A DNA stretch of 64,000 bases from Synechocystis sp. PCC 7509 (GTDB lineage Bacteria; Cyanobacteriota; Cyanobacteriia; Cyanobacteriales; Chroococcidiopsidaceae): the NCBI RefSeq assembly GCF_000332075.2, contig NZ_ALVU02000001.1, forward strand, positions 2,678,324-2,742,323, in the 5' to 3' direction. The notes below the pieces were generated by a model. It was not told the origin of the DNA, ran no database searches, and saw nothing but the letters and a program-made list of their open reading frames with translations. Of this stretch, positions 16,256-21,182 are shown piece by piece. The position numbers and the translations under genes were made by a program. Position 1 is the first letter of the stretch. Each line of letters opens with the position of its first letter.

Positions 16256-17173
16256 TTAGTTAGTTGCCGTACAACAGGAAACTAAGGGTTCTCTAGCAAT
16301 TTGATCTAATCCCACCGAATCTAACAAATCTGCCCATTCATTGACTAATGCGGCATTATTTGGACTGGATTTGCGGGTTTCAAAGAGCGCCGCGAGGCTA
16401 TCATACCAAATACCATTAACAGCGTACAGAGAAGCGCGATCGCTAGGCGATGCTTGTTGCAATTCGGTTTGTAAGGCGGGGTCGGGTTTGATTCTTTGCA
16501 CCCAACCATCTACAAATATATCTGCCGAACGGTCTTGAGTGTTACACACAATCGATAAATACCAGTGGTAACTTTTATTTACTTGCAAGGGTTTTAAACC
16601 AGGCAAAGTTGAAAAATTTATACTAGCGATACCCCCACTTTTATTCGGTGTGAGGTTTTTTTGATAAATCTCGTTATCGTTTTCATCTAGTAGTGATAGT
16701 TCTAAGGTATCGGCAGAAGTTTGTGGTACATAAAAGAAAATTACCGGATACTGGGTTGTGGTCATGCCTAAATTATTGGCAGGAACTAATGCTGTTAAAG
16801 TGCGATCACTACTAGAACACCCTCCTCTAGTTGCACCACCTTGTCTTGTGCCAGGTGCGCCTCGGTTTGAAGCGATAAATATAGTTTTTGATGTACCGCG
16901 ACGAGCGTACTTACTGACATTATTGATTGCAGCCGTAGCATAGGGATCGCCAGGACGAGAACTTAAAGCGCGTCTAAAATTAACCAAAGCCTGGCGATAA
17001 TTTCTTTTAGCCGTTGCTGAGTAGCCTTGCCGCATATACTTGTTATATTGCGATGAGGTAGATTGAGCAATTGCCGTTGGCAATTGGGGAACTGCCAAAG
17101 TTGGCACTATGGGCATTAAACAAGTTGTTGCTAAAATTGCCGGTAAGTATTTCAACCAATAATTGCGTTTCAC
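16256..17173 (-). CDS. DUF928 protein with N-terminal TPR-like repeat, exported
   Basis: The 305-residue protein has a signal peptide (MKRNYWLKYLPAILATTCLM and a likely cut after AIAQ). A single TPR-like repeat follows (YSATAKRNYRQALVNFRRAL). The rest is the DUF928 domain of cyanobacteria, marked by RGGC, TLTALVPANNLG and YPVIFFYVPQTSA, and ends with a Cys pair (VSCCTATN). It is probably periplasmic. DUF928 has no established function and often appears next to CHAT or filamentous haemagglutinin proteins elsewhere; none is present here. Confidence 0.85.
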   Translation of the reverse strand: MKRNYWLKYLPAILATTCLMPIVPTLAVPQLPTAIAQSTSSQYNKYMRQGYSATAKRNYRQALVNFRRALSSRPGDPYATAAINNVSKYARRGTSKTIFIASNRGAPGTRQGGATRGGCSSSDRTLTALVPANNLGMTTTQYPVIFFYVPQTSADTLELSLLDENDNEIYQKNLTPNKSGGIASINFSTLPGLKPLQVNKSYHWYLSIVCNTQDRSADIFVDGWVQRIKPDPALQTELQQASPSDRASLYAVNGIWYDSLAALFETRKSSPNNAALVNEWADLLDSVGLDQIAREPLVSCCTATN

Positions 17174-17964: not shown

Positions 17965-18171
17965 AGGATTTGAGGAGATTGATCAAAAACAATTAACAAT
18001 CATTGCCTTTTAAAAAAAGACTATTGCAAGCAGCGCTGGGTCAAGTGCGATCGCAGTTTTTGGTTTATTTCAGGAATTGCCGCCCAGGTAGTTGAATAAC
18101 TTAAATAACGAATAATCAATCACTGCCGATAACTTGCCCACATAAAAACACTTTTGGGAGCATCTCACATT

Positions 18172-18663
18172 ATGCACAAGATAGCTTTGGAATGGGTAGA
18201 AGAAGGGCGCAACCGTTCTCAAGCCTTTTCTTTTGACAAACCAAACGAGCCGCCCATCCGCATTGGCAGAGATGAAAGTCAGTGTGATGTTATTGTCAAA
18301 GATCCAGCAAAAACCGTCTCTGGCTTGCACGTAGAAATATTTTTTGACTTAGCCAAACATACTTTTTACTTACGTAATCTGACTAAAAATAGAGATAAAC
18401 CAAATCCTGCATGGGTAAACGGACAAAAAGTTGTGGGAGAGGATGCAGCGCTCTCTCGTCGCGCCATGATTCAACTAGGCAAGATAACACTAACGGCTAA
18501 TGTTACTTCCGATGCCCCGGAAGATGCGCCCGTACACGGATTAAAGTGTCATGTATGCGGTCATGTTTCTCCCCAGGCAAGTTTGTCGTTAGTGTGCCAG
18601 TGGTGCGGAACTTCCTTAGCCTCAGCGCCAACGGCTGTTTACTTTCCCGACGAAAAACCCTAG
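18172..18663 (+). CDS. FHA domain protein with C-terminal zinc ribbon
   Basis: The ATG at 18172 (MHKIALEWVEEG) is preferred over the TTG at 18154; GGGAG lies at 18155-18159. The product has 163 residues. The FHA domain covers about 1-110, with the signature RIGRDESQCDVIVKD and SGLHVEI typical of phosphothreonine recognition. The C-terminus has two Cys pairs (CHVCG and CQWCG), a zinc-ribbon pattern. It is the first gene of an operon with the FHA-FAD protein 26 bp downstream. FHA domains read Ser/Thr kinase signals; the partner is unknown. Confidence 0.88.
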   Translation: MHKIALEWVEEGRNRSQAFSFDKPNEPPIRIGRDESQCDVIVKDPAKTVSGLHVEIFFDLAKHTFYLRNLTKNRDKPNPAWVNGQKVVGEDAALSRRAMIQLGKITLTANVTSDAPEDAPVHGLKCHVCGHVSPQASLSLVCQWCGTSLASAPTAVYFPDEKP

Positions 18664-18689
18664 TTAAATTTTTGCACTAATACACCCTT

Positions 18690-20693
18690 ATGGAAATTCA
18701 ATTAAGCTGGGAAGACCCCACTTCCGGGGAGTTATTTGAACCACGTTTATCAGCGCCGATTGCTTTTGGTAGAGAATCAAGTCAAATTCCGCCAACGATT
18801 AACGAGCAGCCAGTTTCGCCAATTATTCTTGCCAGCAAGCAAGTTTCGCGCTTTCATGCCTTAATTACCGCTAGTAACGGGCAACTGACCATTGAGGATC
18901 GCAGCGCCAATGGTACGCTAGTAAATGGACTTCGCATTACCCAATCGAGCCAGGCTTTAAATAGTGGCGATACCCTCAAACTAGGGGCTTACGAAATTAC
19001 CGTAACTATTGAGTCGATGGTAAATAATATCGAGGCGACAGAAGTTGTCATCGGCGACCCCTCAGCGACGGAATTTATCGTTCCTTCTTCTACCATTGTT
19101 TTCAATCTAGAAACAGACATTCTAGAAGCTCAAGCTATTATCCCGCAAGAAATTAGCACTCCTGGGAGCGCTTTTCCGCCAGCGTGTTTTGCCGCCGAAA
19201 GAGTATCCATTGCTGATATTAATGCCGCCGGGCTACCCATTGAAGAAAGCGACTATGTAAGCTTAGGGGCGGGAATGGGTAGTTTTACTTGGGTTGATAC
19301 CATGCGCTGCTTTGGTGTCAAAGCCGATCAAATTGTCGTGTTAGGGATTGAGCAAAAGCCCTACGGTCGCTATCAGCGTTTGTGTCAAAATTCGCAAATT
19401 CCCGCCCACGAGCGGCTGCGATCGGGTTCAGACTCTTGCCCAGACAATATTTGGGGCTGGCCAGGGTATGCGTGGAGAGAGTCGTTTAAAGAATTTTTTA
19501 GAGGACAAATTGGTTCGTCAATTAAACATCTGTGGCAGGTATTTTCTGAGCCAGTATTGGCAGATACTTATACGCCAAAGTCCGGCGATGTATTTGCCTC
19601 CGTAGACCGGGAAGCGACAAGAATTGGCTGGGAAAAAATGCTGCGTTACGGACGTTTCCGGGCAATTCGCAAAACCGAAGATGGGCGTTATGTTATTGCT
19701 TATTCTCGCACCCAGGGAGATCGCCAAGATCACCGCTTTTTAATCACTCGTTACATCCAGATGGCTCCGGGTTATCCAGCGATTAAGTTTCTCCCAGACT
19801 TGCAGGCTTACCGGGAAAAATATCGCGATTTTAAATCTGTAGTCAATGCTTACGAAGAACACGAACACGTTTACAAACATTTAACTACCAAAGGGGGTAG
19901 TGTAATTATTCGGGGTCGAGGCATTGTAGCCTCCCGAATTATTCAGCGCATATCAGAAATTCGCCGCCAAAATCCCAATATTACAATTTTGCACTTAATG
20001 CGATCGCCAAAACCTGAAGGTAATAAGTTTGGAGTTGCCCAGCGCAAAACCGAAAATCAGTGGGAATTTCAGCCCTACAACTGGCCTAAAGGTACTTGGG
20101 GGGGTGACATGAAGAAACGCTTAGAGGAAGGCAGTCCTGTCGAACGCCAGCGCTTGCTTACCGATTGGGGCGGGACTACTACCGCCGATCGCACAGACTG
20201 GAAAAAGATTGTGAGTGGTGGATTGCAAGAAGGATGGTACTCGATTGCGTTTGGTAAAGTTGACCGAGTTGAGCAAGACGATAAAGGGCGCTTAGTTACT
20301 TATTTAGAAACTAGCAATATTAAAGGTGAAAGCAAGCTCAATGCTGACTTTGTTATCGACTCTACAGGTCTTGATGCCAAGCCATCGGAAAGTCCTTTTC
20401 TCAACGATTTGGTTACTCATTACAACTTACCGCTCAACCCTTTAGGACGGTTGCACGTTGCTAATGACTTTGAGCTTGTAGAGATGCGAAATGATCGCGC
20501 GCGGATGTATGCAGCCGGGGTAATGACTTTAGGTGGACCCTACGCGCCCGTAGATACGTTTTTAGGGTTGCAGTATGCGGCGCAGTGTGCGGCGGATGGT
20601 TTAGCCAGAAATCGCGCACCAAAAGCAAGTCGCCTCAATGGTTTGGGTTCTTTCATTCAATGGATTAAGTGGGCAACTAATCAAACACCATGA
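18690..20693 (+). CDS. FHA domain fused to FAD-dependent oxidoreductase
   Basis: The 667-residue protein has an N-terminal FHA domain (about 1-115; FGRE, SRFHALI, DRSANGTLVNG). After a linker comes a flavoprotein-like region (about 170-655): ESDYVSLGAGMGSFTWVD near 185, GGSVIIRGRGIVASRI in the middle, and a C-terminal DFVIDSTGLD plus MYAAGVMTLGGPYAPVDTFL, which reads like the FAD-binding end of NAD(P)/FAD oxidoreductases. The exact GxGxxG site is atypical (GAGMGS), so cofactor use should be tested. It overlaps the next gene by 4 bp (ATGA). A phospho-signal-gated redox enzyme is an inference. Confidence 0.82.
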   Translation: MEIQLSWEDPTSGELFEPRLSAPIAFGRESSQIPPTINEQPVSPIILASKQVSRFHALITASNGQLTIEDRSANGTLVNGLRITQSSQALNSGDTLKLGAYEITVTIESMVNNIEATEVVIGDPSATEFIVPSSTIVFNLETDILEAQAIIPQEISTPGSAFPPACFAAERVSIADINAAGLPIEESDYVSLGAGMGSFTWVDTMRCFGVKADQIVVLGIEQKPYGRYQRLCQNSQIPAHERLRSGSDSCPDNIWGWPGYAWRESFKEFFRGQIGSSIKHLWQVFSEPVLADTYTPKSGDVFASVDREATRIGWEKMLRYGRFRAIRKTEDGRYVIAYSRTQGDRQDHRFLITRYIQMAPGYPAIKFLPDLQAYREKYRDFKSVVNAYEEHEHVYKHLTTKGGSVIIRGRGIVASRIIQRISEIRRQNPNITILHLMRSPKPEGNKFGVAQRKTENQWEFQPYNWPKGTWGGDMKKRLEEGSPVERQRLLTDWGGTTTADRTDWKKIVSGGLQEGWYSIAFGKVDRVEQDDKGRLVTYLETSNIKGESKLNADFVIDSTGLDAKPSESPFLNDLVTHYNLPLNPLGRLHVANDFELVEMRNDRARMYAAGVMTLGGPYAPVDTFLGLQYAAQCAADGLARNRAPKASRLNGLGSFIQWIKWATNQTP

Positions 20694-21133
20694 CACCTAT
20701 TTTATTTGGACGTTGGCAAACGCGAATATTTCTGCTTGCCACAATTGGATTAATTGTTAGCTTACCTTTTGCTTTTGGCTTAATTGGCCCGGCGGCGGGT
20801 AACTATAGTTTTCACCCAATTTTCTTTTGGGTCATTTTTTGGGTAGGCGTTTTAGGCTTACTTTGGGATATTCTTTACAACTACTTGCAGCAGTATTTGT
20901 GGGATCACGACTGGCCCGGTGCTTTTCAATTTTTTGCCTGCATTGCCGAAGGCATTGTTTTAGGATTGCTACTCAAGTTTGTCGGCTTACCTTTTATAGA
21001 CCGCACCGTATTTGACTTACCTTGGTTTATTGTCCACTATACGGCAGTTTCTATAGTCGCTTATTTCTTATCTTGGGCTGTTATGCGGATACTATTCCCC
21101 CGATGGCGGTTTAGAGGCGGTAAATGGATCTAA
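20690..21133 (+). CDS. Four-helix membrane protein of the FHA operon
   Basis: The 147-residue protein starts inside the stop of the upstream FHA-oxidoreductase gene (ATGA overlap), which implies translational coupling. It has four hydrophobic segments, near residues 13-33, 42-62, 76-96 and 108-130, with charged ends. I do not recognise a family with known function. Its position suggests a membrane anchor or redox partner for the FHA-FAD protein. A strong terminator follows at 21155. Confidence 0.85.
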   Translation: MTPILFGRWQTRIFLLATIGLIVSLPFAFGLIGPAAGNYSFHPIFFWVIFWVGVLGLLWDILYNYLQQYLWDHDWPGAFQFFACIAEGIVLGLLLKFVGLPFIDRTVFDLPWFIVHYTAVSIVAYFLSWAVMRILFPRWRFRGGKWI

Positions 21134-21154
21134 AAACAAGGTTTTAATACTTTG

Positions 21155-21182
21155 AAAGACGTACTACGGTGCGTCTTTTTTT
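21155..21182 (+). terminator. Terminator of the FHA operon with UACG tetraloop
   Basis: A 10-bp stem (AAAGACGTAC 21155-21164 and GTGCGTCTTT 21169-21178, one G-U pair) is closed by the stable tetraloop TACG and runs into a T tract. Confidence 0.9.

Follow-up and report, generated by a model that had tools for sequence, protein, structure and literature searches.

A conserved cyanobacterial gene set linking an FHA-flavoprotein to a four-helix membrane protein

The 64,000-nt stretch of contig NZ_ALVU02000001.1 from Synechocystis sp. PCC 7509 analysed here (the window, to which all coordinates refer) raises the question of what a predicted flavoenzyme with its own phosphothreonine-reading FHA domain does next to a small membrane protein. 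Three genes and a terminator form the unit in question: an FHA/zinc-ribbon protein (FHA-Zn), an FHA-flavoprotein and a four-helix membrane protein. We describe a conserved cyanobacterial gene set, apparently unstudied, in which the flavoprotein and the membrane protein nearly always occur together. A preliminary description had read the locus as a redox enzyme recruited or switched by a Ser/Thr kinase, an interpretation that is partly supported. As the main correction, the unit that holds together is the enzyme with its membrane protein, and the FHA modules appear to have been put on by cyanobacteria.

The gene unit and its conservation

All features of the unit lie on the + strand. The FHA-Zn gene (18172..18663) starts at ATG 18172, with an alternative TTG at 18154 possible, and encodes 163 aa with an N-terminal FHA domain, in which GR and SxxH are kept, and a C-terminal CxxC..CxxC zinc ribbon. 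After a gap of 26 bp follows the flavoprotein gene (18690..20693), whose 667 residues comprise the FHA domain (residues 27-99 by Pfam; 18768..18986), a low-confidence linker (around 110-160) and a two-dinucleotide-binding flavoprotein part (around 165-667). The membrane-protein gene (20690..21133; 147 aa) begins within the flavoprotein stop codon, the ATGA at 20690-20693 giving a gap of -4 bp. Past the last stop, an intrinsic terminator (21154..21179) closes the unit with a hairpin and a T run; the hairpin has -15.1 kcal/mol (z -5.2), and none of 200 shuffles was as good. A plain terminator scan found 8 against 7.1 expected, which alone would be non-significant. The observed unit is real: the three tight open reading frames (ORFs) in an operon-like arrangement, the strong terminator and the coupled four-helix membrane protein of the preliminary description are all confirmed.

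The two downstream genes are almost inseparable across genomes. Among 386 genomes of the phylum, the flavoprotein (scored by its catalytic domain) is found in 60 and the membrane protein in 60; both are present in 59, each occurs alone in one genome, and 325 hold neither. Within the order (104 genomes), 56 hold both, one and one hold a single gene, and 46 hold neither. In five genera, genomes with both genes stand beside genomes with neither and no genome has only one of them; the two discordant genomes fall in two other genera. Fisher values on these tables ignore phylogeny and are descriptive only. For comparison, a neighbouring PHP-domain gene used as control is found in 183 of the 386 genomes at E 1e-30. 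In one discordant genome (G278) the flavoprotein is present and the membrane gene was not found even at E 10; in the other (G383) the flavoprotein was not found and the membrane gene has three stop codons. The decaying gene (L129 6821-7015; G383:C1:3657581-3658011) lies between GDSL-like and endonuclease V-like genes, both named by resemblance. Since the flavoprotein and the membrane gene are nearly always present or absent together, they probably belong to one machine. Of the 59 pairs, 25 are co-oriented and within 700 bp, and a further 25 are within 10 kb; in 4 the two genes are more than 500 kb apart, and in 5 they sit on different contigs. The distant pairs indicate that the association does not rest on adjacency alone.

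The position of FHA-Zn was followed in the best 80 of 222 relatives of the 667-aa protein, all 80 with cyanobacterial record titles. In 78 of them FHA-Zn is encoded upstream in the same orientation, an arrangement beyond chance; the exceptions are a contig end (L035) and a locus without FHA-Zn (L028). The gap is at most 517 bp in 77 of these 78 and 1541 bp in L031. For 45 of the 80 the fetched stretch includes the membrane gene, which begins no more than 700 bp downstream in 20 and overlaps by 4 bp, as in the window, in four (L003, L004, L005 and L028). At the genome level, FHA-Zn is matched at E <1e-15 in 54 of the 60 flavoprotein genomes and six are without it; in G087 the counted match comes from a 371-residue frame located on a different contig, and a true FHA-Zn is probably missing there too. 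Two flavoprotein-less genomes (G085 and G241) have weaker FHA-Zn matches in longer frames. The co-occurrence on which the preliminary description had staked its reading is borne out, with FHA-Zn missing in at least six of the 60 flavoprotein genomes.

The pair also occurs outside the cyanobacteria. A tblastn search of the plasmid collection gave one homologue, in an 11.85-Mb Nonomuraea gerenzanensis record. The encoded enzyme has 505 aa, is 37% identical in the catalytic part and has no Pfam match, and thus is without an FHA domain. The next gene overlaps that of the enzyme by 4 bp (TTGA) and encodes 139 aa with 38% identity to the membrane protein, so that the pair of enzyme and membrane protein is not confined to cyanobacteria. 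With the Nonomuraea enzyme as query, tblastn recovered the enzyme itself and a further 21 records, whose partial matches had E values of 0.08 or higher. Enzyme and membrane protein together appear to make up the older unit, with the FHA domain and FHA-Zn as cyanobacterial regulatory additions; we infer the later gain of the FHA domain from this one actinobacterial genome.

Further genes recur around the unit. A GDSL-lipase-like gene (Pfam name from one member) immediately precedes the membrane gene in 23 of the 65 membrane frames examined, one of them at L126 5170-6537, and may hint at an ester or lipid substrate. G068, whose flavoprotein gene is 1.5 Mb distant, likewise has a GDSL-type hydrolase gene in this place. 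Of 90 FHA-Zn frames, 58 have an endonuclease V gene upstream. A 735-aa frame (L127 5179-7386), considered as proof of a gene fusion, contains the flavoprotein without its last quarter (profile 6-373 of 507) and a membrane protein that is apparently intact, with its ATG kept at the usual start; the frame is a second copy in G255. We took it for a truncated copy rather than a fusion, because the flavoprotein C-terminus is missing and the membrane ATG is kept. In the window itself, a gene for a DUF928 protein (222 bits; 16256-17173) lies just upstream of the unit on the opposite strand (-).

Fold and family placement of the catalytic domain

The AlphaFold model of the flavoprotein (33 sequences; predicted local distance difference test, pLDDT, 74.8) begins with a strand-rich FHA region, which a linker of low confidence joins to a domain with two Rossmann units. 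Foldseek ranked SidA first (E 2e-16) and had PvdA within the top 50 (E 9e-15), at 12-14% identity. In the VIA comparison, which matched over approximately residues 184-645, the Z scores were 22.4 for the bacillithiol disulfide reductase Bdr/YpdA (311 residues, 3.2 Å), 19.9 for FMO and 18.9 for PvdA, with thioredoxin reductases and NMOs (N-hydroxylases) both at about 18-19. The preliminary description had staked its reading beforehand on a dinucleotide-binding fold, and the model with the Foldseek and VIA matches returns a two-dinucleotide-binding flavoprotein. Its hallmark, a Rossmann domain for flavin adenine dinucleotide (FAD) split by an inserted Rossmann domain for reduced nicotinamide adenine dinucleotide (phosphate) (NAD(P)H), is seen in the model, in the VIA matches (Z about 18-22) and in the motifs starting at residues 193 and 409. 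The first motif, GAGMGS (residues 193-198; 19266..19283), would by analogy be the FAD site and is followed by an acidic residue at 221 that is conserved in 81 of 81 flavoproteins. YEEHEHVY (388-395) precedes the second motif, GRGIVAS (409-415; 19914..19934), the NAD(P)H site by analogy. STGL (558-561; 20361..20372) corresponds to the ATG(Y) motif of class B enzymes. All 81 cyanobacterial proteins have Cys232 and Cys250, but Nonomuraea has T and A at these positions, and a redox-disulfide mechanism was rejected as general for the family.

At the level of family profiles, the catalytic part matches no Pfam or NCBIfam family at cut-off. Neither PF13434 nor another monooxygenase family stood over the cut-off, and across 33 members at E up to 10 the only such family listed at all was Trp_halogenase (1 of 33, E 0.011). 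The best NCBIfam value over 17 members was E 0.027, for LodB, which was matched below threshold by 5 of the 17; QhpG was matched by one member (E 0.085). A profile search of the PDB with the catalytic alignment gave two chance-level matches (E 1.4). On viral contigs 10 stretches fit a pattern and none was a relative, and viral structures yielded generic flavoproteins only. The LodB, QhpG and Trp_halogenase matches, together with invariant tryptophans in the membrane protein, would fit a protein-modifying flavoenzyme comparable to LodB and QhpG, with a residue of the membrane protein, or of another partner found by the FHA domain, as the site of oxidation. We consider such an enzyme very unlikely. 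The matches are all weak, and LodB and QhpG are class A-like single-Rossmann enzymes, unlike the two Rossmann-type units of the flavoprotein model. Neither a type II NADH dehydrogenase (NDH-2) nor a class A monooxygenase is among the 50 VIA matches listed, though absence from this list proves nothing.

Profile-profile comparison gave collinear alignments with two sets: one of eight cyanobacterial Lys_Orn_oxgnase proteins, which are N-hydroxylases (354 columns, P 0.005, probability 7%), and the two-sequence set L176+L177 (373 columns, P 8.9e-5, probability 60%). Reversed-query controls gave P 0.13 and 0.39, the latter for L176+L177. L177 itself is above the PF13434 (Lys_Orn_oxgnase) cut-off. 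Compared singly, L177 aligned over 138 columns (P 2.1e-4) and L176 weakly over 29. The P value for L176+L177 should be read as about 0.002 at best, because the set was chosen post hoc and 19 comparisons were made in total.

These alignments bear on another reading, an enzyme like NDH-2 or sulfide:quinone oxidoreductase (SQR), in which NAD(P)H would reduce FAD and the membrane protein would help to pass electrons to plastoquinone. NDH-2 and SQR belong to the two-dinucleotide-binding superfamily, so the fold agrees with this reading, as does the near-obligate membrane partner. However, 15 single Pyr_redox_2 matches from the same genome align over 18-79 columns against the 354 of the eight N-hydroxylases and the 373 of L176+L177, an uneven comparison of singles with sets, given the 29 and 138 columns of L176 and L177 singly. 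The membrane protein also has no conserved haem histidine pair, its H116 not being kept in Nonomuraea. We regard an electron-transfer role of this kind as improbable.

Class B enzymes are the flavin monooxygenases that have two dinucleotide-binding domains (PMC4981433). We place the catalytic domain near the class B/NMO (N-hydroxylase) branch, and do not file it as a member because the fingerprint of the class is absent from it.

FHA domains, membrane partner and kinase linkage

Both FHA domains of the preliminary description are borne out. PF00498 scores 35.1 bits in FHA-Zn and 51.7 bits in the flavoprotein (Pfam cut-off 20.7), and the phosphopeptide residues are kept. G27, R28, H56 and G75 of the flavoprotein FHA domain are present in 81 of 81 sequences, and S53 and N74 in 80 of 81. 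In FHA-Zn, G32, R33, S50 and H53 are found in all 80 ORFs, and the N of the NG pair is replaced by D in 66 of 80. The C-termini of the 80 homologous FHA-Zn ORFs, the window's included, carry CxxC..CxxC in 68 cases, CxxGH..CxxC in 10 and neither pair in 2; the Pfam zinc families stayed below cut-off in FHA-Zn. The genome of the window has 11 FHA matches, including both unit proteins, and the solved FHA structures matched include GarA, OdhI and Rv1747. At L012 3851-4831, ahead of the intact unit, lie an extra FHA-Zn gene and, after it, a 123-aa frame that matches the flavoprotein in its FHA part only.

The model of the membrane protein shows four helices (pLDDT 69.6). R and K are concentrated mainly at the N-terminus and the C-tail, which suggests that both termini are inside. 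Over 21 sequences, the inner segments have a mean column identity of 0.84 versus 0.34 in the outer loops. The conserved inner segments (N-terminus, loop 2 and C-terminal tail), predicted to be cytosolic, are the likely docking site for the flavoprotein. Pfam has nothing for the window's membrane protein (best over 16 members E 0.019), and a fold search gave no match (best E 1.9). Haem in this protein was considered and rejected on its histidines, as given above. The N-terminus reads MTPTL or MTPIL in 45 of 46 cyanobacterial ORFs with a readable start and MIPTL in the FHA-less Nonomuraea pair. It is a long shot that Thr2 is phosphorylated by a Ser/Thr kinase and recruits the FHA domain of the flavoenzyme, which would make a Hanks-type switch of a membrane redox reaction, with FHA-Zn competing for or bridging to the same site.

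The linked Ser/Thr kinase that the preliminary description had suggested looking for is absent from the 64-kb window, the nearest kinase gene being 36 kb upstream of the unit. The genome itself has 23 kinase matches above cut-off, and 24 related genomes have 9 to 66 each. Among 96 fetched flavoprotein-holding loci, a count that leaves out 4 fetched loci without the flavoprotein, 13 contain a kinase (17 genes; L032 and L130 are the same place). About 7.6 would be expected in 1.24 Mb from the 798 matches over the 24 genomes (about 130 Mb), a roughly twofold excess that is rough because thresholds differ and the loci include other lineages. Kinases lie near the flavoprotein in several unrelated genomes (32 bp in L032/L130, 468 bp in L028, 521 bp in L116 and 604 bp in L122), in no fixed place; Pfam confirmed the kinase domain for L130, L122 and L116. 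The lack of a kinase in the window, the weak linkage elsewhere and the FHA-less Nonomuraea enzyme would suit an FHA domain that is a constitutive assembly module of an ordinary metabolic complex, with no kinase gating. Against this stand the phosphopeptide residues, kept in 80-81 of 81 flavoproteins and 80 of 80 FHA-Zn ORFs, and we think a purely constitutive module rather unlikely. Kinase-dependent phosphothreonine gating of the flavoenzyme is plausible.

Proposed mechanism and comparison with known systems

We propose that the product of the unit is an NAD(P)H-dependent enzyme resembling flavin monooxygenases, docked at the membrane and recruited by way of phosphothreonine, a proposal we hold to be evenly balanced between right and wrong. 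One Rossmann domain of the flavoprotein would probably bind FAD and the other NAD(P)H, as in class B flavin monooxygenases, with their N-hydroxylase branch nearest, and the enzyme would probably oxidise or reduce a membrane-soluble small molecule. The 147-aa four-helix protein would be its near-obligate partner, its cytosol-facing segments likely docking the enzyme. In cyanobacteria, the FHA domain and the usual FHA-Zn neighbour would probably recruit or gate the enzyme by reading phosphothreonine, whether this is carried by a kinase, the membrane partner or a different protein.

Several observations weigh against this proposal. The flavoprotein model is only moderate in confidence and is weak, for example, at 243-253, 286-299 and 462-478. 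VIA ranks a disulfide reductase first, with thioredoxin reductases among the best. The FxGxxxHxxxY/F/W fingerprint of class B flavin monooxygenases was not found in the window protein by regular expression. No Pfam flavoprotein family matches that protein, the best over 33 members being FAD_oxidored (7 members, E 0.012). The hhalign probabilities (7% and 60%) are modest, and the L176+L177 set was assembled after L177 had scored best singly. The flavoprotein and the membrane gene are not always adjacent (9 of 59 pairs more than 500 kb apart or on other contigs), the kinase linkage is weak, and the evidence beyond cyanobacteria is one genome.

In our literature searches, no paper was recognised as describing an FHA-flavoprotein, and within the family libraries and paper searches made, the preliminary view that no system of this composition has been described stands. 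Few FHA-reading effectors are, to our knowledge, known in cyanobacteria. The unit adds a widely conserved one, in genera including Nostoc and Anabaena. This effector is a predicted enzyme in its own right, with a membrane protein as near-obligate partner, and offers a handle on what kinase signalling switches in cyanobacterial cells. The unit also brings into view two uncharacterised families, one of flavoproteins and one of membrane proteins, both shared with at least one actinobacterium.

Among known systems, the bacterial metabolic regulators GarA and OdhI and the FHA fusion protein Rv1747 have an FHA domain of the same type as that of the flavoprotein. GarA and OdhI inhibit a metabolic enzyme as separate proteins, whereas the flavoprotein carries its FHA domain within its own chain. 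With Bdr/YpdA and the thioredoxin reductases, the flavoprotein shares the two-dinucleotide-binding fold and, for Bdr, the highest VIA Z score (22.4); these enzymes have about 310-330 residues against about 500 in the flavoprotein, and a conserved redox disulfide is not a feature of the flavoprotein family. The class B N-hydroxylases (SidA/PvdA/IucD, PF13434) resemble the flavoprotein in the two Rossmann-type units in the same order, the GxGxG and GxGxxA motifs, the (A/S)TG motif near the C-terminus, the collinear remote alignment and the top Foldseek matches. In contrast to SidA, PvdA and IucD, the flavoprotein is without a Pfam-level match or the fingerprint, is longer, and carries an N-terminal FHA domain together with a near-obligate membrane partner.

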